Assembly (NCBI RefSeq): GCF_005403045.1
Contig: NZ_BJCL01000015.1
Span: 1-64,000, forward strand
Origin: Pseudaquabacterium pictum
GTDB taxonomy: Bacteria > Pseudomonadota > Gammaproteobacteria > Burkholderiales > Burkholderiaceae_C
Direction: 5' to 3'
Length of the DNA: 64,000 nt
The notes beneath the pieces were generated by a model that worked only from the letters and a program-made list of their open reading frames with translations, had not been told where the DNA came from and did not search any database. The position numbers and the translations under genes are program-made. Below are positions 30,666-46,407 of this stretch, in pieces. Numbering within the stretch: the stretch's first letter is position 1; each line of letters starts with the position of its first letter.

Positions 30666-30710
30666 CTGGGCCTTGCGGCTAAGCTGGTGGTCACCACACC
30701 AGGAGCCCCG

Positions 30711-31547
30711 ATGGCCAAGGACAAGAAGCCCGCAAAGAAGCAGCATGCTGACGGGGTGGCGGTGCCGGCGGCCGACAAGCCCAAGTCCCATCTCAGCAAG
30801 GCCGACTACCTGGCCGAACTGGAGCCGCTGGAACTGGCGCTGAACAACCTGGCGCGCTGGCTGCAGCACACCGGCCGGCGGCTGGTGGTGGTGTTCGAGG
30901 GCCGCGACACGGCGGGCAAGGGCGGCGCCATCGCCGCCATCGCCGACACGCTGAACCCGCGCCAGTGCCATGTGGTGGCGCTGGCCAAGCCCAGCGAGCG
31001 CGAGCAGTCGCAGTGGTACTTCCAGCGCTATGTGCCGCACCTGCCGGCCGCCGGCGAGATCACGCTGTTCGACCGCAGCTGGTACAACCGCGCCGGCGTC
31101 GAGCGGGTGCTGGGCTACTGCACCGAGGCGCAGGCCCTGGCCTTCCTGGACCAGGCGCCCAGCTTCGAGAAGATGCTGGTCGATGACGGCATCCTGCTGG
31201 TCAAGTACTGGCTCACCGTCGACCAGGCCGAGCAGGAGCGGCGGTTCGCCGAGCGACTGGAGGATCCGCTGAAGCGCTGGAAACTGTCGCCGATCGACCT
31301 GAAATCCCGCAGCCAATACGCCGCGTACTCGGCGGCGCGGGATGCGATGCTCGCCGCCACCCACACCCGGCATGCACCGTGGACGCTGGTCGACTTCAAC
31401 GACCAGCGGCGTGGCCGGCTGGCGCTGATCCGCCACCTGCTGGCCCATGTGCCCGACACCCATGTGCCGCCCGAGCCGCTGCGGATCCCGCCCCTGGCGG
31501 GCCCACCGCAGCAGGAAAACCTGCCCAAACGCTTCAGGCCGATCTGA
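30711..31547 (+). CDS. ppk2: polyphosphate kinase 2 family protein
   Basis: A 278-residue PPK2-type kinase that transfers phosphate between polyphosphate and nucleotides. Walker A is GRDTAGKGG (64-72), the lid region has QWYFQRYVPHLPAAGEI, and the second acidic loop is DRSWYNR (121-127). A basic, Lys-rich N-terminal tail (residues 2-30) precedes the domain. The ATG at 30711 follows AGGAG by 7 bases. Whether it favours ADP, GDP or AMP is not clear from sequence alone. It stands alone after the atp terminator and is convergent with the TPM gene. Confidence 0.92.
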   Translation: MAKDKKPAKKQHADGVAVPAADKPKSHLSKADYLAELEPLELALNNLARWLQHTGRRLVVVFEGRDTAGKGGAIAAIADTLNPRQCHVVALAKPSEREQSQWYFQRYVPHLPAAGEITLFDRSWYNRAGVERVLGYCTEAQALAFLDQAPSFEKMLVDDGILLVKYWLTVDQAEQERRFAERLEDPLKRWKLSPIDLKSRSQYAAYSAARDAMLAATHTRHAPWTLVDFNDQRRGRLALIRHLLAHVPDTHVPPEPLRIPPLAGPPQQENLPKRFRPI

Positions 31548-36125: not shown

Positions 36126-38219
36126 ATGGCGTTGAGCGACCTGACGCTGTCGGTGGCGGTGGAGGCACCGCAGCACAGCGGCCTGGCCGGCGCCCTGCAC
36201 TACAGCAGCCCGCAGGACCTGCCGCCCGGCACGCTGCTGCGGGTGCCGCTGGGCAAGCGTGATCTGCTGGGCATCGTCTGGCATGGCAGCGCGTCGGATG
36301 GCACGCCGCCGGACGGCACGCAGCTGCGCCCGGTGGGCGCACTGCTGGACTGCCTGCCGCCGATGGCGCCGGCCTGGCTGGCCCTGGTGGACTTTGCCGC
36401 CAGCTACTACCAGCGCGGCGTCGGCGAGCTGGCGCTGGCGGTGCTGCCGCCCGAGCTGCGCAAGCTCGATCCGCCGGGCCTGGCCAAGCGGGTGGCGCGG
36501 CTGCTGAAGAAGCTGGATGCCACGCCCCTCCCGCCAACCGCGCCGGTGCAGCGGCCCCAGCTGGGGCCGGAACAGCAGGCGGCGCTGGCCGCGTTCCGCA
36601 CCGCGTTCGCCCAGGCCGGTGCCACGCCGCGGCCGGCACCGCTGCTGCTGCACGGCGTCACCGGCAGCGGCAAGACCGAGGTCTACCTGCATGCGGCCGA
36701 GGACGCGCTGGCCGCCGGCCGCCAGGCCCTGGTGCTGGTGCCCGAGATCAACCTCACGCCGCAGCTGGAGGCGCGCTTCGCCGCCCGCTTTCCGCAGCAC
36801 CGGCTGGTCAGCCTGCACAGCGGGCTGACGCCGGTGCAGCGCCTGCGCCACTGGCTGCTGGCCCACCTGGGCCGCGCCGACATCGTGCTGGGCACGCGCA
36901 TGGGCGTGTTCGCGCCGCTGCCGCGGCTGGGGCTGATCGTCGTCGACGAGGAGCATGACCCGTCCTACAAGCAGCAGGAGGGCGCACGCTACTCGGCGCG
37001 CGATCTGGCCGTCTACCGCGGCCACCTGGAGCGGGTGCCGGTGATTCTTGGATCGGCCACGCCGTCGCTGGAGACCTGGCAGCACGCGCTGCCCGGCCCG
37101 CGCCAGCGCTACCAGCGCCTGCCGCTGGCCGAGCGGGTGGGCGGCGGCGCACTGCCGCGGGTGCGGCTGTTCGACATGGGCGTGCTGCCGCGGACCAACG
37201 GCCAGAGCCCGGTGCTGGCGCCGATGGTGGTCGACAGCCTGCGCCAGCGCATCGCCGCCGGCGAGCAGAGCCTGGTGTTCCTGAACCGCCGCGGCTATGC
37301 GCCGGTGCTGCACTGCGCCGATTGCGGCTGGAAGAGCGGCTGCCCGCACTGCAGCGCCTGGCGGGTGTTCCACAAGGGCGAGCGCACGTTGCGCTGCCAC
37401 CACTGCGGCTTCACCGAGCGGGTGCCGCGGGCCTGCCCCGACTGCGGCAACCTCGACATCGCGCCCCTGGGCCGCGGCACCGAGAAGCTGGAGGAGCAGC
37501 TGGCCGAGCTGCTGCCCGGCGCCCGCATCGCCCGGCTGGATGCCGACACCGCCCGCGGCAAGGGCCAGCTGGAAGCCCGCCTGGCGGCGGTGCATGCCGG
37601 CGATGTGGACGTGCTGGTGGGCACGCAGATGGTGACCAAGGGCCATGACTTCCGCCGCATCACCCTGGTGGTGGCGGTGAACCCCGACAGCGCGCTGTTC
37701 GCCAGCGACTTCCGCGCGCCCGAGCGGCTGTTCGCCTTGCTGATGCAGGCCGCCGGCCGCGCCGGGCGGGATGCCGCCCAGGCCGGCGCCAGCGAGATGT
37801 GGGTGCAGACCTGGCACCCCCAGCACCCGCTGTACGCCGCGCTGAAGACGCATGACTTCGCCGCCTTCGCGGCCAGCCAGCTGGCCGAGCGCGAGGCCGC
37901 CGGCCTGCCGCCCTTCAGCCACCTGGCGCTGCTGCGTGCCGAATCACGGGATGTGGCGGTGGCCCAGGCCTGGCTGGAGGCGGCGGCCGCGTTGGCTGCC
38001 GGCCTGCCGGGCGGCGACGGCGTGACCGTCTACCCCCCGGTGCCGCCTGCGGTCAGCAAGGTGGCCGGCATCGAGCGGCTGCAGATGCTGGTGGAGGCGC
38101 CGTCACGCGCGCGGCTGCAGCAGCTGCTCGTCCACTGGATGCCGGCACTGCATGGCCTGCGCAGCCGCCACAAGGGGCTGGCGCGCTGGGCCATCGACGT
38201 GGACCCGCTGGCGATCTGA
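36126..38219 (+). CDS. priA: primosomal protein N', replication restart helicase
   Basis: A 697-residue 3'-5' helicase that reloads the replisome at stalled forks. It has an N-terminal DNA-binding domain (about 1-110), Walker A GVTGSGKT (177-184), the DEEH box in VVDEEHDPSYKQ, and the zinc-binding insert with four CxxC pairs (CADCGWKSGC, CPHC, CHHCGF, CPDCGN). The helicase C-terminal blocks are GTQMVTKGHDF and QAAGRAGR. The length is a little below the E. coli protein (732). No good ribosome site precedes the ATG. Confidence 0.96.
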   Translation: MALSDLTLSVAVEAPQHSGLAGALHYSSPQDLPPGTLLRVPLGKRDLLGIVWHGSASDGTPPDGTQLRPVGALLDCLPPMAPAWLALVDFAASYYQRGVGELALAVLPPELRKLDPPGLAKRVARLLKKLDATPLPPTAPVQRPQLGPEQQAALAAFRTAFAQAGATPRPAPLLLHGVTGSGKTEVYLHAAEDALAAGRQALVLVPEINLTPQLEARFAARFPQHRLVSLHSGLTPVQRLRHWLLAHLGRADIVLGTRMGVFAPLPRLGLIVVDEEHDPSYKQQEGARYSARDLAVYRGHLERVPVILGSATPSLETWQHALPGPRQRYQRLPLAERVGGGALPRVRLFDMGVLPRTNGQSPVLAPMVVDSLRQRIAAGEQSLVFLNRRGYAPVLHCADCGWKSGCPHCSAWRVFHKGERTLRCHHCGFTERVPRACPDCGNLDIAPLGRGTEKLEEQLAELLPGARIARLDADTARGKGQLEARLAAVHAGDVDVLVGTQMVTKGHDFRRITLVVAVNPDSALFASDFRAPERLFALLMQAAGRAGRDAAQAGASEMWVQTWHPQHPLYAALKTHDFAAFAASQLAEREAAGLPPFSHLALLRAESRDVAVAQAWLEAAAALAAGLPGGDGVTVYPPVPPAVSKVAGIERLQMLVEAPSRARLQQLLVHWMPALHGLRSRHKGLARWAIDVDPLAI

Positions 38220-38241
38220 ACGCCGGCGCGGTGGTGCGCGC

Positions 38242-38802
38242 TCAGCCGCGGCGGCGTGCCAACCAGCCCACCGTGGCCAGGCCGGCCAGCAGCAGGGCGG
38301 TGGTGGTGGGCTCGGGGATGGGCGCGGCATTGGTCAACGCCACCTGCACCGTCCAGCGGCTGCCGATCGGCAGGCCCTGGCTGGTGCGCAGCTTGTAACC
38401 CTCGGCCCAGGTGCTGCCGACCGGCAGGTTGGGCGACAGACTCACCGCCACCTGGTAGCGGCCCGGCGCCAGGTCGGTGATGACGATGCCCGCGTCCAGC
38501 GATCCCTGGGTCGGGTCGACCTGCCCGTAGGGGTTGTCGACGTCGTCGCCCAGGCTGAGCAGCCCGCCGGAGGCGATGTCGAAGACCGCGAGCAGCGGGT
38601 CGCCCTGGCCGCCGGCGAAGGAGGTGGTCCACAGCCGCAGGTCCGATGCGGTGTCGACATCCAGGTTGAAGCTGTGGACGTCGCTGCTGAAGGCGAACTG
38701 GCCGGTCTGGCTGAAGCGGGCCACATCGGCCTGGGCGGCCAGGCTGGCCAGGGCCAGGGTGGCCGCGGCGGCGGTGCGTGCGAAGGTGTGCAGGGCGTTC
38801 AT
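38242..38802 (-). CDS. PEP-CTERM sorting-domain protein
   Basis: A 186-residue secreted protein with an N-terminal signal peptide (MNALHTFARTAAAATLALAS then LAAQA) and a C-terminal exosortase signal: PEPTTTALLLAGLATVGWLA followed by RRRG. The middle (FSFNLDV-like strands and DDDVD-rich turns) resembles DVUA0089-type pre-peptidase folds. PEP-CTERM proteins are processed by exosortase, which is not in this window. The start at 38802 is set by the signal peptide. It is convergent with priA, and 25 bp downstream of the PhoD-type gene in the same direction. Confidence 0.88.
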   Translation of the reverse strand: MNALHTFARTAAAATLALASLAAQADVARFSQTGQFAFSSDVHSFNLDVDTASDLRLWTTSFAGGQGDPLLAVFDIASGGLLSLGDDVDNPYGQVDPTQGSLDAGIVITDLAPGRYQVAVSLSPNLPVGSTWAEGYKLRTSQGLPIGSRWTVQVALTNAAPIPEPTTTALLLAGLATVGWLARRRG

Positions 38803-38827
38803 GGTGGGTTCCGTTGGGCTGCCGTGC

Positions 38828-40486
38828 TCAGGGCGCCAGCAGCGGCGCGTTGGCGCGCGGGGTGGTCTGGGCCGACGGCACCAGCCGGTTGGTGCCGGCC
38901 TGCACCTCGAAGGCGGCGGCAAAGGTCTGCAGGTTGCTGAGGCTGGCCACGGTGTCGATGTGCCAGAACTCACCCACCACCCGCTGCGGCGTCACGTCCA
39001 GCAGCAGGTAGCCGCGCCTGTGCAGGTTGATGTACTTGAAGTGCGGGTTCTGGCTGCGCAGGAAGCCGGCCGTGCTGCCGCTGGTGTCGCTGTCGACTCC
39101 GGGCGAGGACACCGAGGTGCCGACGAACTCCACCGCCCGCGAGCCCTGGCCGGTGGCCGGGTTGTAGCCGCCGGTGGCGGTGTCGGGGTTGTTCGGGTCC
39201 TGGGTGAGGTCGGCCGCCCAGCTGCTGTGGATGTCGCCGGTCAGCACCACCATGTTGTCCACCGGCCGGCCGGTGCTGCTGCCCTTGAGCACGTCGTACA
39301 CCCGGTCGCGGGCGGGCTGGTAGCCGTCCCACTGGTCGCTGTTGAAGAACACGCCGCCGCCGGCGGCATTGGCCGCGCCGCGCAGCTTGACCTGCGCGAA
39401 CATCACGCCCTGGCCCAGGAACTTCCAGCGGGCCGGGGTCGTCTGCAGCCGGTTGAACAGCCAGGCCTCCTGCTCGGCACCCAGCAGCGTGCGGCTGGCA
39501 TCGGTGAAGGCACCGGTCTGCGCAAAGCCGCCGCCGGCCGGCAGCTGCTGCGAGCGGGCGCTCAGCCGCTGTTCCAGCATCAGCAGGTCGACCAGGTCGC
39601 CCAGCTGGAAGCGGCGGAAGTTCTTGCGCGGGTCGGCCTCCACCTGGCGGATCGGCATCCACTCGTAGTAGGCCTGCAGGCCGGCGGCCACGCGTTGCGG
39701 GTAGTCGCCCTCGGTGGCGCTCTGGTGGTTCTGGGCGCCGTCCTTCCAGGTGTCGTTGGTGATCTCGTGGTCGTCCCAGATGCAGACGAACGGGTGTTGC
39801 CGGTGCACCGCCTGCGAGTCGGCATCGCGCTTGTACTGGGCGTGGCGGGCGCGGTAGTCGGCCAGCGTCACCATCTCGGTGGGCGGCTCGGGGGTGCGCA
39901 GGCTGCCGTACTGGCCGGCGCCGTATTCGTAGAGGTAGTCGCCCAGGTGCAGCACCAGGTCCAGGTCGGCCCGCTCGGCCACGCGGGCATAGGCGTTGAA
40001 GTAGCCGTAGGCATGGTTGGAGCAGCTCAGCACCGCGATGCGCAGGCGGTCGACCGCGCCCACCGGCAGGGTGCGGGTGCGGCCCACCGGGCTGCTGGCG
40101 CCGCCGGCGGTGAAGCGGTAGTAGTAGGTGGTGGCCGGGCGCAGGCCGGCGGCATCGATCTTGACGGTGAAGTCGCGCGCCGCGCTGGTGGTGGTGGCGC
40201 CGCGCAGCACCACGTTGCGCAGGCCGGGGTCGGTGGCCACCACCCAGGTCACCGGCACCAGCGGCTTGACGCTGGCCACGGTGACGCGCGTCCACAGGAT
40301 CACCCGGTCGGCCAGCGGATCACCGCTGGCCACGCCGTGCTGGAAGACGGCCGATGCGGCGTCGGCTGACGTGGCCAGCAGCGGCGAGGCGGCGGCGATG
40401 CCCACGGTGGTGGCGCCGGAGCGCTTGAAGAACTCGCGCCGGTTGGTGCCGGTGCGGATGGGTGAAAGCTGGCTGGGGCGTCCCAT
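38828..40486 (-). CDS. phoD: PhoD-type alkaline phosphatase, Tat-exported
   Basis: A 552-residue phosphodiesterase/phosphatase. It has a twin-arginine signal (TNRREFFKRSG, Arg16-Arg17, then a hydrophobic stretch to about 45), an N-terminal fibronectin-like domain (FQHGVASGDPLADRVILWTR) and the metallophosphatase core. Core blocks are LRIAVLSCSNHAYGYFN, LHLGDYLYEYG, FVCIWDDHEITND and VLTGDIHSSWAADL. PhoD enzymes use Ca and Fe and release phosphate from esters in the periplasm. The frame continues upstream as a shadow, but the Tat motif fixes the start at 40486. Confidence 0.93.
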   Translation of the reverse strand: MGRPSQLSPIRTGTNRREFFKRSGATTVGIAAASPLLATSADAASAVFQHGVASGDPLADRVILWTRVTVASVKPLVPVTWVVATDPGLRNVVLRGATTTSAARDFTVKIDAAGLRPATTYYYRFTAGGASSPVGRTRTLPVGAVDRLRIAVLSCSNHAYGYFNAYARVAERADLDLVLHLGDYLYEYGAGQYGSLRTPEPPTEMVTLADYRARHAQYKRDADSQAVHRQHPFVCIWDDHEITNDTWKDGAQNHQSATEGDYPQRVAAGLQAYYEWMPIRQVEADPRKNFRRFQLGDLVDLLMLEQRLSARSQQLPAGGGFAQTGAFTDASRTLLGAEQEAWLFNRLQTTPARWKFLGQGVMFAQVKLRGAANAAGGGVFFNSDQWDGYQPARDRVYDVLKGSSTGRPVDNMVVLTGDIHSSWAADLTQDPNNPDTATGGYNPATGQGSRAVEFVGTSVSSPGVDSDTSGSTAGFLRSQNPHFKYINLHRRGYLLLDVTPQRVVGEFWHIDTVASLSNLQTFAAAFEVQAGTNRLVPSAQTTPRANAPLLAP

Positions 40487-40655
40487 GGCGTCGTCCTGTG
40501 TGGTGGTGCCGCGGCGGCTGCCGCGGCGGTGCCGGTGGATTCTGTGGACGTGCTGTGACACGCCGCCCGGCGCCCGCCCCGGGCCGAACGGCGCATGCCG
40601 CCGCAGGAGGGCGCTTGGTATCCTTCCGCCGCCACAACACCAGGAGGATCCGCCC

Positions 40656-41390
40656 ATGACCCACGCCCTGCACGGCCACGGCCTGCAACGCCGCCACCTG
40701 GCTGGCGCCGCCCTGCTGCTGTTGGCCGGTTGCGGCGGCGGCAACACCGAGAAGGACGAGGACGCCGTCGCGCCGTCGCTGGTGATCACCAGCGATGTGC
40801 CGGGCGATGCCACCGGCCCGTTCACCGTGCGCTTCACCTTCAGTGCTGCGGTCAGCAACTTCGCCGCCAACCGCATCCTGCTCACCAACGGTGCGCTGGG
40901 CGGCGCGGCGCTGGTCAAGCTGAGCGACACCGTCTACACCTTGCAGGTCACACCCACGGCCAACCGGCAGGACGTGCTGACGGTGGAGGTGCCGGCCGGC
41001 GCCTTCCGGGATGCCGGTGGCACCGCCTCCAGCCTGGTGGCCTACCGCTTCAGCCAGCGCATCGACACCGTGGTGGCCACCAACGAGCCGGTGCTCACCA
41101 TCACCAACAGCACCGCCGCCAACATCGCCACCGGGCCGGTGACCTTCACCTTCGACTTCAGCGTGGATGTGGGCGACAGCTTCGCGGCTGGCGACATCGA
41201 GCCGGACGCGGGCACGCTGGGCAGCTTCACCAAGGTGTCGGCCACGCGCTACACCGTGGTGCTCACGCTGCCGGCCGCCACCTCGGGCCTGATGACGCTG
41301 ACGGTGCGGGCCGGCGCCTTCCAGAGCGCCACCGGCGTGCCGAGCCAGCAGACCTACACCACGGCCATCCTGTTCGCCATCCCGGTCTGA
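40656..41390 (+). CDS. Ig-like-domain lipoprotein
   Basis: A 244-residue protein with a lipoprotein signal (LLLLAGC, Cys near residue 24) and two repeats of about 95 residues of the bacterial Ig-like type: SLVITSDVPGDATGPFTVRF and VLTITNSTAANIATGPVTFT start the two units, each ending with a Val/Ala-rich strand and GAF. Such domains mediate adhesion or act as spacers; no enzymatic motif is visible. AGGAGG lies 8 bases before the ATG. It is divergent from phoD across 169 bp and convergent with the porin gene. Confidence 0.85.
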   Translation: MTHALHGHGLQRRHLAGAALLLLAGCGGGNTEKDEDAVAPSLVITSDVPGDATGPFTVRFTFSAAVSNFAANRILLTNGALGGAALVKLSDTVYTLQVTPTANRQDVLTVEVPAGAFRDAGGTASSLVAYRFSQRIDTVVATNEPVLTITNSTAANIATGPVTFTFDFSVDVGDSFAAGDIEPDAGTLGSFTKVSATRYTVVLTLPAATSGLMTLTVRAGAFQSATGVPSQQTYTTAILFAIPV

Positions 41391-41407
41391 TCACACGCCG
41401 CGTCCGC

Positions 41408-41438
41408 GCCCCCCGGGGGGCTGGCCACCTGCGGTGGC
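41408..41438. terminator. paired palindromes between convergent genes
   Basis: The 14-bp palindrome GCCCCCCGGGGGGC (41408-41421) is followed by the stem GCCACC (41424-41429) and GGTGGC (41433-41438). They lie between the Ig-like lipoprotein and the convergent porin gene and could end both transcripts, but there is no T-run. Confidence 0.35.
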
Positions 41439-41453
41439 GGCGCGGAAACCTGG

Positions 41454-42680
41454 TCAGTGCGTCCACTGCAGGCGCATGGCCCAGCCCGACAAGGCGCCGG
41501 TTCCGCTGACCTGACCTTGGCTGACCACCGCCGAGAGCCGCCACTGGGCGTCGATGAACCAGTTCAGGCCCAGGCTCAGCAGATTGGCGTGCGCCAGCGG
41601 GCTGCCGGCATCCGATGCGGTGGCCCGCAGGTGATCGGCGCGCAGCACCAGTTCCACGGTGCTGACGGCCGCACCGGACGGCCCGCGGTAGCGGCCCTGG
41701 TTCGCGTCCCAGCCGCGCGGGCTGCCGTGCAGCGTGCGTGCGGCGGTGGCGGTCCAGCCACTGGCCTGCCGGGTCCATGACAGGCTGGCCGCAGCAGCGT
41801 CCTGTCGGCGGTACAAGCCTTCCATCGCCAGCCACCAGCGGCCGGCGGACAGGCTGGCCTCCAGGCCCGCCGCCTGGTCATCGCCGGGCTTGGCGTCCCT
41901 GGGCCATGCGGGGAGCAGGGTGATCCGTTGGCCGCTGTCGAGCGCCGAGGCAGCGCGTTGCCCCAGCCGGCTTCGCAGGCGTCCTGTGTCGGCATCGCTG
42001 CGCTGCCATGCCCAGGACGCCCCCAGGTGCAGGCCCGCGGGCAGCCAACCCGGCACCGCGTGCGGCTGCAGGGCATCGCCGTTGTGCCGCCACACGATCC
42101 GCGCCACCAGGGCCTGTCGGTCCGGACGGCGGTAGGCCCCCGCGCTGGCATGCCAATCCGGGGCGGCGGCGTCCATGCGCAACGCCACAGTCCTGCGTGT
42201 GTCATCCAGGTCAGGCGCCAGATCCCACAAGGGCGAGCGTTCGGGCAGGTGGCCCCAACTGCTGCTGATGGTGCTGTCCAGGCCGAAGTCCGGCGCCACG
42301 CGGCCCAGCCGCACACCCACCGGCCCGCCGCTGGGCTGCCACTGAAGCCAGGCGGCCTCCACGCTGGAGGTGCCGCCACTGCCGGCCTGCCACGACCAGG
42401 CGGCGCGCCAGCCGGGCGCCGGCCGCCAGCGGATGTCCCAGGTCGCGCGGCGCAGCCAGTGGCCGGCATGGCGCCGACCGTCGCGGCTGAGCGCGCCGCC
42501 GATGCCGCCGCTGTCGAGCTGCAGGCGCCATCCCATCTGGACAGACCGGGTGGCCGCGGCGTCGGTGTCGCCATGCGCGGGCTCGGCGGCCGCCAGTCCG
42601 GCGGCGGCAGCCAGCAGCAGGGCCGGCAGCGTGCGGCGCCACCGGCGGACCGGAGGCAGGGGGCGGCGGCTGTGGTGCAT
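41454..42680 (-). CDS. outer-membrane porin-like protein (OprO/OprP-like)
   Basis: A 408-residue protein with a signal peptide (TLPALLLAAAAGLAAAEPAHG, cleaved near 37). It has alternating amphipathic strands throughout and ends in an aromatic beta-strand (WAMRLQWTH), as outer-membrane barrels do. The blocks AWLQWQPSGGPVGVRLGRVA and PDFGLDSTISSSWGHLPER resemble the LGQFKPPFSLE-type region of the phosphate-selective porins O and P. The match is distant, so a phosphate role is inference from this and the neighbours. It is divergent from the DUF4956/VTC operon. Confidence 0.68.
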   Translation of the reverse strand: MHHSRRPLPPVRRWRRTLPALLLAAAAGLAAAEPAHGDTDAAATRSVQMGWRLQLDSGGIGGALSRDGRRHAGHWLRRATWDIRWRPAPGWRAAWSWQAGSGGTSSVEAAWLQWQPSGGPVGVRLGRVAPDFGLDSTISSSWGHLPERSPLWDLAPDLDDTRRTVALRMDAAAPDWHASAGAYRRPDRQALVARIVWRHNGDALQPHAVPGWLPAGLHLGASWAWQRSDADTGRLRSRLGQRAASALDSGQRITLLPAWPRDAKPGDDQAAGLEASLSAGRWWLAMEGLYRRQDAAAASLSWTRQASGWTATAARTLHGSPRGWDANQGRYRGPSGAAVSTVELVLRADHLRATASDAGSPLAHANLLSLGLNWFIDAQWRLSAVVSQGQVSGTGALSGWAMRLQWTH

Positions 42681-42872
42681 ACACCGGACAGAGCGCGCCA
42701 GACCGGTGTGCGTACATCGGCATCCAGGCCACTTCCGGCCTGTCATGACGATTTGTGACAGTTCCGTGTATTTGCCGGGCCCTGCCGCCGTCCGTGTGAC
42801 AAGTGCGTGACCGTTGCGCGGCCCTTCCGGCCGGCAGGTTCAGCCCCCCACCAGAACGCCAGGACGACACCC
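42681..42872. promoter_or_regulatory. divergent spacer with PhoB-box-like repeats
   Basis: On the minus strand 42813-42796 reads CGGTCACGCACTTGTCAC. Aligned to the Pho box (CTGTCAY-AWAW-CTGTCAY), its two 7-mers match 6/7 each at the right 11-bp spacing, though the spacer GCAC does not fit AWAW. A second site has CTGTCAC (minus strand, 42761-42755) followed by a shifted 5/7 copy TCGTCAT. The same stretch shows an inverted repeat CTGTCA/TGACAG (42740-42745, 42756-42761). Both lie between the porin-like gene and the DUF4956/VTC operon. Confidence 0.45.
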
Positions 42873-43454
42873 ATGCCCGCTCTCCATCCGACCATTCCCG
42901 CCGAACTGCTGCCACGGCTGCTGATCGACCTCGTGACCATGCTGCTGCTGGTCTTCGGCCTGTACTACCGGCGCTACCGCGACAAGGAGCTGGTCACCGC
43001 GGCGGCGCTGTTCAACGTGTTCATCTTCGCCGTGCTGAGCGTGCTGTCGAGTGTCGAGTTCGGCATCGCGGCCGGCTTCGGGCTGTTCGCGATCCTGGCG
43101 ATGTTCACCCTGCGCTCGGAGCCGATCGGCAAGACCGAGATCACCTACTTCTTCGGCAGCGTGGCCATCGCCGTGATCTGCGCCGTGCGTGGCACACCGC
43201 TGCCGTTCGTGGCGGCGGTGGCCCTGCTGGTGCTGCTGGGGGCCTGGGTGATCGACCACCCGAAGGTGCTGCAGTCGGTGGACGGCATCCGCATCACGCT
43301 GGACAAGATCGACCACCACGCCCTGTCGAACCCGGTCGAGATGCGGCGCGACCTGTCGCAGCGCCTGGGGGTGGAGGTGATGTCCTACCAGATCACGGCG
43401 CTGGACTACATCAACGACATGGCCCGCATCACGGTCTTCTACAGAAAGGCATGA
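42873..43454 (+). CDS. DUF4956 membrane protein
   Basis: A 193-residue protein with four membrane helices in the first 120 residues (LIDLVTMLLLVFGLYYRRY, AALFNVFIFAVLSVLSSVEF) and a C-terminal soluble alpha/beta domain with DKIDHHALSNPVEMRRDLSQ. DUF4956 proteins are often encoded next to VTC-domain proteins, as here, but their biochemical role is not known. The ATG at 42873 precedes the first helix. The VTC gene follows 3 bases after the stop. Confidence 0.85.
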   Translation: MPALHPTIPAELLPRLLIDLVTMLLLVFGLYYRRYRDKELVTAAALFNVFIFAVLSVLSSVEFGIAAGFGLFAILAMFTLRSEPIGKTEITYFFGSVAIAVICAVRGTPLPFVAAVALLVLLGAWVIDHPKVLQSVDGIRITLDKIDHHALSNPVEMRRDLSQRLGVEVMSYQITALDYINDMARITVFYRKA

Positions 43455-43457
43455 ACC

Positions 43458-44264
43458 ATGGAACGCTCGGACGACGACACCGGCGCAGCCCGGCTCTTCA
43501 GCGGGTTTCACCCCATCAGCCTGGCGGCGCTCAACAGCAAGGCCGCCATGCTGGAGCGGCTCGACAACAAGTACGTGGTGCGCGCACCGGTGCTGGAGGC
43601 CCTGGCACCGCAGCTGGCCCAGGCGTTCGACGTGCTGGAGATCGATGACCGCCGCATCTTCACCTACGAGACCTGCTACTTCGACGATCCCGAACTGCGC
43701 AGCTACCACGACCACCACCAGGGCCGCCGCCAGCGCATGAAGGTGCGGGTGCGGCGCTATGTGGAGGCCGGGCTCTGCTTCGTGGAAGTCAAGCTCAAGG
43801 ACAAGCGCGGCATCACGGTGAAGAAGCGCCTGCCCTGCAGCCCCGACGCCATCGACCGGCTGGATGCGGCGGCGCTGGCGCATGTGCGCGACAGCCACCA
43901 GCAGCTCTACGGGCGTCCGTTCGACCGTGCGCTGGAGCCGGTGCTGCAGATGCGGTACCGGCGTGCCACCCTGGTGGCCCGGGTCGGGGGCGAGCGCATG
44001 ACCATCGACACCGACATCCGCTTCTTCGGCCAAGGCGCTCCGCGCGCCACGGATGCGGACACCTTCATCGTCGAGACCAAGTCCGCCTGCGGCAACGGCC
44101 TGGCAGACGCGATCCTGCGCACCCAGCACCTGCATCCCACCAATGCCTGCTCGAAATACTGCGTGGGCATGAGCCTGACGGGTGCGGTGCAGAAGTTCAA
44201 CCGGTTCCGGCCGGCCTTGCGCAAGCTGGGTGCCCTGCCGCTGGAGCAGGCCCATGCAGCCTGA
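43458..44264 (+). CDS. VTC-domain protein (polyphosphate polymerase-like)
   Basis: A 268-residue member of the triphosphate-tunnel family, like the catalytic part of yeast Vtc4, which makes polyphosphate from ATP. Tunnel residues are visible as LDNKYVV (35-41), ETCYFDDPEL (71-80), RRQRMKVRVRRY (90-101), VEVKLKDKRG (109-118) and, near the end, FIVETKSACGNGLAD. All key basic and acidic strands are present, so it could be active. The close DUF4956 partner may supply a membrane path. Polyphosphate synthesis in bacteria by this family is not firmly shown. Confidence 0.85.
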   Translation: MERSDDDTGAARLFSGFHPISLAALNSKAAMLERLDNKYVVRAPVLEALAPQLAQAFDVLEIDDRRIFTYETCYFDDPELRSYHDHHQGRRQRMKVRVRRYVEAGLCFVEVKLKDKRGITVKKRLPCSPDAIDRLDAAALAHVRDSHQQLYGRPFDRALEPVLQMRYRRATLVARVGGERMTIDTDIRFFGQGAPRATDADTFIVETKSACGNGLADAILRTQHLHPTNACSKYCVGMSLTGAVQKFNRFRPALRKLGALPLEQAHAA

Positions 44265-44547
44265 GCCGGTCCGCGCAGGCCCGGCCGTGGCACCGCCTGC
44301 CATGGCGCTGGAACTGGGCCCGGTGGTGACCAAGCTCAGCACCTCGCTGGGCGGTGCGGTGCCGGTCGAGCGCATCGAGCAGGTGCTGCGTGACCTGCTG
44401 GAGCAGGAGTTCAGCGAAGCCAGGGTGACAAGCTTCCTGCCGATCTTCCTGCACCGCTATGCGATCGAGACCCTGCGGCATGGCCCCACTGGCGATGCCC
44501 AGGGCGGCCTGCCGGCGGCGATTGGTACGGGCCGCGCCCATGGCTGA
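44254..44547 (+). CDS. stand-alone three-helix-bundle domain protein
   Basis: A 97-residue protein whose core (ALELGPVVTKLSTSLGG, VPVERIEQVLRDLLEQEF, ARVTSFLPIFLHRYAIETL) resembles the small three-helix dimerisation module found at the N-terminus of some arsenate-reductase-like phosphatases. The module stands alone here. It starts inside the VTC gene (11-base overlap) and overlaps the next gene by 8 bases, so it is translated with both. It may tie these proteins together, which is inference. Confidence 0.65.
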   Translation: MQPEPVRAGPAVAPPAMALELGPVVTKLSTSLGGAVPVERIEQVLRDLLEQEFSEARVTSFLPIFLHRYAIETLRHGPTGDAQGGLPAAIGTGRAHG

Positions 44548-45430
44548 CGGCGTGCTTCGTCGCTGCCTGGGCCGGTGCATGCTGGCCGCGGCCCTGGCCC
44601 TGCCGGCGGCGCCGCCGGTGGTCGCGGCACCGCCGGCGCCGCTGCAGGTGCTGCTGCTCGACAGCCTGGCAGTCGATCTGCCCGGGCACGGCCGGCGCAA
44701 CCGGCTGGAGCTGTCCGACCTGGCCTGGGACCCGGCCAGCGGCGATGTCTGGGCAGTCTCCGACCGCGGCTGGCTGCACCGCTTGCAAGTGGAGATCGAG
44801 CATGGCCGGCTGGTGGCGGTGCAGGAGCTGTCCCGCGTGCTGCTGGACGGTCGACCCAACCTGGAGGCCCTGGCCCTGCGGCCGGGTGCCGTGCCGCTGC
44901 TGGCGATCGATGAGGAGCGCCGCCTTTGGCTGGAGATCGATCGGGTTGGCAAGGTGGTGGCATGGCATGCGCTGCCGCAGGCATTGCCGACCCATGCCGG
45001 GCACAGCGTGGAGGCGATGGCCTGGCATCAGCGCCATGGCGTGCTGCTGGTGGCCCAGAAGTCCGGCAGCACGGGCGAACACCGCATCCTCACCACCACC
45101 GGGGCGGACTGGCGCTTGCCCGCCTTGCCAGGTGCCCAGGTCCGGGCCATGGGCTGGATGGCCGACGGTCGCCTGCTGCTGCTGGAACAGCGGCGGGCGG
45201 ACGGCCAGGTCAGTTTCCATCTGCGCGCCACCAGCCTGGAGGGCTGTGGCATCGGTGGCCGATGCGACTCCAGCGACGTGGCGCTGCCCGTCTCCGGCAC
45301 CGCGGCTGTCGATCACCTGGAAGGGCTGGCCTGCCGGGGCACGCAGTGCCTGCTGGTCACCGACGATGGGGGTGCCGCCCCGGCCCGCACCCGGCTGGTG
45401 CTGCTGGAACTGGTGACGGGCGCGCGCTGA
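44540..45430 (+). CDS. phytase/esterase-like propeller protein, exported
   Basis: A 296-residue protein with a signal peptide ([20 protein letters not shown]). Repeated strands follow, such as [60 protein letters not shown] and [19 protein letters not shown], with the Asp/Glu-rich pattern of the esterase-like-phytase/SdiA-regulated propeller family. It has no classic histidine-phytase motif. The start at 44540 overlaps the preceding gene by 8 bases. It closes the four-gene operon. Confidence 0.75.
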
Positions 45431-45444
45431 GGCACGGCCGCCGG

Positions 45445-46407
45445 TCAGGCCGGCTGCACGCCGAACAGCCAGGCCAGCGCGCTGAAACTGGCGAAGGCGC
45501 CCACGGTGCTGGCCAGGATGATGCGCGCCACGCGGCCGGAATCGGCGCCGTAGCGCTCGGTCAGCAGCGACACGTTGCTGGCGCTGGGCAGGGCGGCGGC
45601 CAGGGTCAGCACCAGCAGCTGGAAGCCGGTGAGCGGCGCGCCCAGCTGCTGCGCGCCGGCGCCCACCAGCAGCACCAGCAGCGGGTGCACGAACAGCTTG
45701 ATCGCCGCCACCGGCAGGTAGTCGGCCAGCGGCGTGCGGGTGTGGGCATGCTGGCCGGCGCGCCACAGCACCGCGCCGATGGTGAACAGCGCCACCGGCG
45801 TGGCGCTGTCGGCCAGCATGCGCAGGGCGGTGTCCAGCGGGCCGCTGGTCTTGAGCCCGGTGGCCGACAGCACAGCGCCCAGCGCGATGGACCAGGGCAG
45901 CGGATTCGACAGCGCGCCGCGCACCGCCCGCCAGGCCGCCGCGCGCGCCCCGCCGGCGCCGCCCTGCAGCTGCGACAGCGCGATGCACAGCGAGCTGGTG
46001 ACGAACAGGTCGGCCAGGATGGTGCAGATCACCGGCCCGGCCGCCGCCGGCCCCAGCAGCGCCACCAGCAGCGGCACGCCCATGAAGCCGGTGTTGGGAA
46101 AGGCGGCCACCAGCGCGCCGAAGCTGGCGTCCTTCAGGCCGACGCGGGTGTTCAGCGACACCGCGATGGTGAAGCCCACCACCACCAGGGCGCACAGCAC
46201 GTACACCGCCAGCAGGAAGGGGTTCAGCAGGTCGAGCACCGGCGTGTTCATGCCGAAGCGCATCAGCATGCAGGGCAGGGCGAAGTACAGCACGTAGGCG
46301 TTCAGCCCCGGGATGGCCGACTCGGGCAGCACGCCGCGGCGCGCGGCCAGCCAGCCGGCCAGCACCAGCGCGAAGAACGGAACGGTGACGGCGAGGATGG
46401 CCTGCAT
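45445..46407 (-). CDS. AEC-family (auxin efflux carrier-like) transporter
   Basis: A 320-residue inner-membrane protein with ten hydrophobic segments. It begins [20 protein letters not shown] and has the usual [13 protein letters not shown] and [16 protein letters not shown] near the second half. AEC carriers move organic acids such as malonate or malate. It is convergent with the phytase-like gene and divergent from rep across 110 bp. Confidence 0.9.

Follow-up and report, generated by a model that had tools for sequence, protein, structure and literature searches.

The DNA analyzed here, referred to as the window, is a 64-kb stretch of contig NZ_BJCL01000015.1 of the beta-proteobacterium Pseudaquabacterium pictum, in which a 7.2-kb insert carries genes for a membrane protein of the family DUF4956, a VTC-domain protein that is a candidate polyphosphate polymerase, a porin and a phytase-like protein. 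Gene families were assigned by Pfam/NCBIfam profile search of the window proteins; the AEC-type transporter was assigned with Pfam and TIGRFAM, and the names priA, hemE, helicase and ATP synthase come from reading the translations. Every gene named in the first-pass annotation, a reading of the bare sequence that had proposed a locus for the capture, import and storage of phosphate, was recovered by the profile search, with coordinates agreeing to within a few codons. The features, with the E-values of the matches, are as follows:

38220..45448 (no strand), 7.2-kb insert between priA and the AEC-type transporter gene, a slot that is variable in relatives
38242..38802, minus strand, PEP-CTERM protein of the DVUA0089 family (NF038127, 2.5e-23)
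38828..40486, minus strand, PhoD-type phosphatase with a twin-arginine-like N-terminus by eye (Pfam, 3.7e-106)
40656..41390, plus strand, Big_12 Ig-like lipoprotein (3.4e-17), with the lipobox LLLAGC in its translation
41454..42680, minus strand, Porin_O_P outer-membrane barrel with its likely start at 42680 (Pfam, 1.4e-17)
42755..42772, minus strand, second, weaker Pho-like site in the gap between the porin and DUF4956 genes (10.5 of 15)
42796..42813, minus strand, best Pho-box-like site of the window, in the same gap (12.25 of 15)
42873..43454, plus strand, DUF4956 protein (Pfam, 4e-49)
43458..44264, plus strand, VTC-domain (triphosphate-tunnel) protein, candidate polyphosphate polymerase (Pfam, 7.1e-33)
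44254..44547, plus strand, small three-helix dimerisation-domain protein (NF046112, 1.2e-6; 28.7 bits, cut-off 25)
44540..45430, plus strand, phytase-like beta-propeller with a signal-peptide-like N-terminus by eye (PF13449, 7.1e-8; 33.1 bits, cut-off 27.6)
30687-31547, PPK2 (5.3e-94), 6.7 kb to the left of the insert

Since the strands alternate, with the PEP-CTERM and PhoD genes on the minus strand, the lipoprotein gene on the plus, the porin gene on the minus and the operon on the plus strand, the insert comprises at least four transcription units. The tight operon of DUF4956, VTC, three-helix and phytase-like genes that had been read from the sequence was borne out, and the same gene order recurs in another genus (genome G025). 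The DUF4956 stop codon is separated from the VTC start by 3 nucleotides (nt), the VTC and three-helix frames overlap by 11 nt, and the three-helix and phytase-like frames by 8 nt. The porin gene diverges from the operon across a gap of 192 nt. The porin scored 64.5 bits against a cut-off of 20.9 for PF07396 (OprO/OprP), and for the phytase-like protein the profile score over the PF13449 cut-off is accompanied by a beta-propeller fold.

With the neighbouring helicase gene as the anchor, 40 genomes were matched, counting the own genome, 23 of them at the strict limit. Stretches were obtained from 16 genomes, of which 15 were informative and one (L128) was too short. In the 15 relatives the backbone reads hemE, priA, AEC transporter and helicase as far as the contigs reach. 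Among the 14 that show both priA and the transporter gene, the two are directly adjacent (27-42 nt) in six, and in the other eight the gap is filled by 0.9-5.6 kb of other DNA. DNA similarity between the window and the relatives ends at the priA stop codon at 38219 and returns at about 45449. This break, together with the arrangements of priA and the transporter gene in the relatives, indicates that the 7.2-kb stretch is one insert in a variable slot, and because the gene order also recurs in G025, the genes are not just a set of open reading frames (ORFs) lined up by chance. No match to the DUF4956, VTC, porin or phytase-like protein was found in any of the 15 relatives' stretches. Base composition was uninformative as a sign of foreign origin, with 71.4% GC in the insert versus 69.4 and 70.6% in the flanks.

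In the order, 399 genomes including the own one were scanned, and DUF4956 was found over the cut-off in the own genome only, with one more under the cut-off, and among 120 relatives (own included) VTC was present only in the own genome and in G025. A scan for DUF4956 in a sample of the phylum gave 8 positive genomes out of 398, again with the own genome included, and DUF4956 and VTC occurred in the same three of 14 control genomes. At least 126 DUF4956 relatives were confirmed in the species collection. The best 80 were retained, and this set leans towards close relatives of the query and is no census. Together with the window and G025, these 80 named loci make up the 82 loci that were searched with home-made profiles seeded from the same loci. 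By title, the kept relatives come from alpha-, beta- and gamma-proteobacteria, besides unplaced bins and one Desulfobulbus bin, and VTC lies on 15 plasmid records, nine of them from Aminobacter. In a tree of 76 DUF4956-VTC pairs, from which six of the 82 loci were left out as they had no full VTC, the classes seem by eye to be interspersed, and the identities of the two proteins over these pairs correlate at 0.76, as expected if DUF4956 and VTC travel together.

VTC was found in 77 of the 82 DUF4956 loci; four of the five misses are contigs that end just after DUF4956, and only L096 is not. In 64 loci VTC starts on the same strand no more than 200 nt past the end of the DUF4956 profile. The phytase-like family was present in 38 loci, the Pit-type transporter PHO4 in 12 (Pfam on samples from four loci, 5.8e-46 to 1.9e-104) and Porin_O_P also in 12, in 11 of them within 4.5 kb of DUF4956 (Pfam on samples from five loci, 4.1e-41 to 4.2e-94). 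The three-helix protein was matched in eight loci, in two of which it lies upstream of DUF4956 and is doubtful. All five of DUF4956, VTC, PHO4, porin and phytase-like protein occur together in L025 and L032, and the RefSeq annotation of a Nitratireductor plasmid independently lists DUF4956, polyphosphate polymerase, inorganic phosphate transporter and phytase-like protein in a row. Further neighbours are of other kinds: an ECF sigma factor in 16 loci and an anti-sigma factor in 16, a histidine kinase in 26 (12 within 4.5 kb) and a response regulator in 31 (21 within 4.5 kb), an EF-hand protein in 7 (one confirmed by Pfam), and a CotH-type gene directly after VTC in three (L061, L069 and L072; confirmed by Pfam in L061). 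An S8 subtilase is found in 22 loci in either orientation, 16 times within 4.5 kb, and one was confirmed by Pfam.

The sequence before each DUF4956 gene, to a maximum of 350 nt, was scored for two CTGTCAT-like half sites 11 bp apart, on a scale with a maximum of 15 on which the upstream regions of E. coli pstS, E. coli phoB and the pstS of the own genome score 15, 13 and 13.25, respectively. In a first pass, 38% of 81 upstream regions reached at least 12, versus 1.7% of 1,620 stretches drawn at random from the same loci. After removal of near-identical regions, 30 of 76, including that of the window, reached 12, versus 4 of 471 other ORF starts, which were chosen mechanically and some of which are surely not real genes, and 6 of 760 shuffles; at a score of 13 the counts were 14 island upstream regions, one ORF start and no shuffle. 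The p-value of the enrichment is 2e-24 with shared ancestry ignored, and high scores were found in alpha and beta lineages with unlike flanks. A model-free search for repeated 5-mers at distances of 7-15 returned seven top repeats that all lie at 11 bp and are pieces of the Pho-box half site or near variants of them. The site at 42796..42813 is the only position of the window to score 12.25 or more on either strand, and a sequence like it lies at a similar place in L026. The genome carries pstSCAB-phoU-phoBR. As far as promoter sequences can tell, these results suggest that PhoB would turn on many of the islands at low phosphate. An inverted pair CTGTCA..TGACAG at 42739-42760 was set aside for the scored sites, since its spacing is wrong. 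By eye, a GTGACA...TGTAT(T/C)-like stretch at 42755-42790 seems to be conserved in the upstream regions of the beta-proteobacterial loci L017, L024, L026, L027 and L035, and it may be part of the promoter.

The conserved core is thus smaller than the phosphate system that had been proposed: DUF4956, VTC, the three-helix protein, the phytase-like protein and the divergent porin stood, while PhoD and PPK2 did not. A phosphate role for the DUF4956, VTC, porin and phytase-like proteins is supported by the Pit-type transporters and OprO/P porins of related islands and by the enrichment of Pho-box-like sites, and the co-occurrence in relatives on which the first-pass annotation had made its idea depend was found for the core families and the porin and not for PhoD. 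PhoD had no match in the other 81 of the 82 loci, and the PEP-CTERM protein likewise was matched in the window alone. In the genome G012 the slot holds a 74% identical PhoD ortholog and no VTC, and in 8 of the 15 relatives (L150-L152, L155-L158 and L164) a second PhoD-like gene, 34-41% identical to that of the window, lies between the AEC transporter and helicase genes, one of these eight matches covering 97 residues only. PhoD-type genes are accordingly common in the slot region regardless of VTC. PPK2 lies outside the insert, adjoining putative ATP-synthase genes (by eye), and Pho-like scores are low before both PhoD (10.5) and PPK2 (9.5). On the basis of the 82-locus search, the relatives' stretches and the Pho-like scores, PhoD, the PEP-CTERM protein and PPK2 were rejected as parts of the system or left as passengers. 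The Ig-like lipoprotein had no match in the relatives' stretches of the priA-AEC region, and it, PhoD and the PEP-CTERM protein are likely to be unrelated genes that share the slot.

The VTC protein has 268 residues and matches PF09359 at 114.6 bits versus a cut-off of 23, over model positions 2-233 of 235. Across all 46 chosen VTC sequences in the alignment, R97, R99, E110, K112, K122, R124, R169, R180, D184, E206, K208 and K233 are invariant, and the same set is also kept in three distant sequences. By correspondence to Vtc4, which was drawn by motif and not by structural alignment, the conserved positions include the candidate basic residues of the tunnel, a metal glutamate and the catalytic-type lysine K233. 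An acidic patch is the criterion for hydrolytic tunnel enzymes (parts of PMC4641920 seen), and two of the hydrolase-type glutamate positions are basic in the VTC protein (R34 and K208); a profile alignment with E. coli YgiF was too weak to confirm the acidic-patch positions. The profile search found the VTC domain alone, with neither SPX nor a membrane domain in the window VTC polypeptide, and no signal peptide was seen by eye. We regard the protein as a candidate polyphosphate polymerase. In L034 a single open frame of 600 residues (L034:10610-12412) contains both VTC and phytase-like domains and may be a natural fusion.

For the DUF4956 protein, hydropathy and an AlphaFold2 model point to five predicted membrane helices and a C-terminal alpha/beta domain. 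The model has a predicted local distance difference test score (pLDDT) of 78.9 and a predicted template modelling score (pTM) of 0.63, and no clear match to the fold was found among 997 chains aligned, a missing match that is not evidence of a new fold. DUF4956 has its own Pfam family and is weakly similar to the MgtC family. MgtC (PF02308) is matched by 22 of 59 DUF4956 members at E-values up to 1 (best 0.0017), which may reflect a distant superfamily, and was not among the matches of the window protein up to E 1. An assignment of DUF4956 as MgtC was rejected: YhiD alone gave nothing, a profile built from 20 MgtC sequences reached E 0.048 with the close DUF4956 set, and in hhalign the MgtC profile against DUF4956 with distant members gave E 7e-4 with a probability of 26%, under the cut-off.

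The explanation that we favour, with belief and doubt about evenly balanced, is that the core genes form an accessory, horizontally spread, probably PhoB-controlled polyphosphate module that would store or buffer incoming phosphate. The porin and the exported phytase-like propeller would bring phosphate to the periplasm, Pst or Pit would import it, and the VTC protein, which DUF4956 would tether to the membrane, would convert the incoming phosphate via ATP to polyphosphate. Such a module would be prepared during starvation and would act on phosphate return, as a store and as protection from a toxic surge, beside PPK1. In Caulobacter, according to excerpts of PMC13250506, polyphosphate synthesis is dispensable on entering starvation and essential on phosphate return, elevated importers lead to a strong phosphate influx, and deletion of phoB abolishes the need for polyphosphate synthesis; a polymerase that shares the control of the importers is what this model would predict. 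PPK1 was present in all four genomes tested, own included, so that the VTC protein was rejected as a replacement for PPK1 and the DUF4956-VTC pair would be a second system.

Several points weigh against this explanation. The genome already carries PPK1 and a Pit gene, which leaves the need for the module in doubt. The acidic-patch test gave a mixed result, since the VTC protein has an acidic residue, D36 (46 of 46), at the position of Glu-4 of AtTTM3. Solved VTC structures are only weakly similar in sequence: the best, Vtc2, gave no match, E 0.3 and E 0.011 with three profiles, and annexins come next at 0.12. The fused frame in L034 fits poorly with a propeller that is purely periplasmic. Apart from the loose control set of ORF starts, 46 of the 76 islands score below 12, and the site of the window is weaker than all three reference sites. 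Finally, storage leaves the CotH, EF-hand, subtilase, ECF-sigma and two-component neighbours unexplained.

These neighbours lend some weight to an alternative which we consider rather unlikely, namely that the DUF4956-VTC pair synthesizes polyphosphate or some other phosphoanhydride chain and moves it across the inner membrane, much as the yeast complex passes polyphosphate into the vacuole. The product would then be a phosphate donor at the surface, a calcium-binding matrix or an osmolyte, and not a cytoplasmic store. The five-helix membrane partner encoded 3 nt upstream of the VTC gene is in keeping with this, as are island neighbours of exported or surface kinds (CotH kinase, also in Deinococcus, EF-hand proteins, S8 subtilases and porins) and the CotH-VTC-DUF4956 sets beside pel genes in Gram-positives (from part of PMC7112168). 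The recurrence of CotH, EF-hand and subtilase partners keeps export under consideration. The yeast VTC complex couples polyphosphate synthesis to membrane passage (excerpts of PMC9911596), and a related proposal, which we hold somewhat more doubtful still, is that DUF4956 and VTC are a bacterial, SPX-free counterpart of that complex. They would be a PhoB-controlled synthase at the inner membrane face that feeds polyphosphate to the periplasm, from where the phytase-like propeller, the OprO/P porin and Pit would close a storage cycle separate from PPK1.

If, instead, the island served scavenging, the porin would admit short polyphosphate or pyrophosphate, and the exported propeller and the VTC protein would degrade it or draw on it as a phosphate donor. 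The phytase-like protein presumably resembles human CANT1 in a motif. A calcium nucleotidase was, however, outranked by eleven other rows as its likeness, and this assignment was rejected, the nucleotidase being a fold neighbour with no sequence support in the PDB searches. The lack of a signal peptide on the VTC protein (by eye) and its basic residues at the two hydrolase-type glutamate positions further make scavenging improbable. It is very improbable that the stretch is an ordinary hot-spot insert, in which PhoD, the porin, the VTC pair and the propeller lead separate lives and share a slot without a joint task. The variability of the priA-AEC slot in relatives is what such an insert would show, and PhoD and the PEP-CTERM protein are indeed not conserved with the rest; however, in other genera, where the flanks differ, the core genes and the porin are again found together, and the overlapping frames here are not expected of a random slot, so that for the core genes this view is already contradicted.

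A polyphosphate module of the favoured kind has partial counterparts among known systems. With the eukaryotic VTC complex (Vtc1/2/3/4) it shares the polymerase domain family and the possession of a membrane partner. The eukaryotic polypeptide, in contrast, includes SPX and membrane parts, both absent from the window VTC, and the membrane partner in the window is DUF4956, which has no demonstrated relation to Vtc1. With the Pho regulon the islands have in common the porin and Pit families and, in many cases, Pho-box-like promoters; a VTC-type polymerase within the Pho regulon was not found among the open-access literature matches listed. In the parts seen of PMC7112168, CotH, polyphosphate polymerase and DUF4956 (in some cases with DUF4832) are accessory genes beside the pel operons of streptococci, clostridia and bifidobacteria, and VTC-domain genes lie near CotH in Clostridium perfringens (part of PMC2879425). 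Those sets share with the window a VTC-type protein and DUF4956 as neighbours. They have CotH and Pel genes, whereas the window has the phytase-like protein and the porin, and related islands also Pit and Pho-box-like promoters; none of the eight insert proteins had a Pfam match to CotH. The association of DUF4956 and VTC beside CotH is thus known already, while the phosphate-linked proteobacterial form appears new, as no report of it was found among the open-access matches listed, a scope outside which subscription papers and preprints lie.

PMC13318637 and PMC7332688, in the portions consulted, assign polyphosphate synthesis to VTC4 in eukaryotes and to PPK in bacteria. If our explanation is right, alpha- and beta-proteobacteria with PPK1 would have, in the VTC pair and its Pho-box-like promoters, a concrete second bacterial system, and the role of DUF4956 would become directly testable. 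It could also matter for phosphorus removal from wastewater, as the carriers include Rubrivivax, Thauera and Hydrogenophaga records.

Two observations concern the other neighbours. The subtilase loci (L017, L023, L025-L028, L032, L033, L035, L045, L046, L049, L056, L059, L066, L067, L070, L075, L077, L080, L082 and L085) often also carry ECF sigma and anti-sigma genes or a long protein that is TPR-like by eye, an association that phosphate storage does not account for. The three CotH-bearing loci, L061, L069 and L072, which by title are gamma-proteobacterial and SAR86 bins, link the proteobacterial arrangement with the CotH arrangement of Gram-positives.

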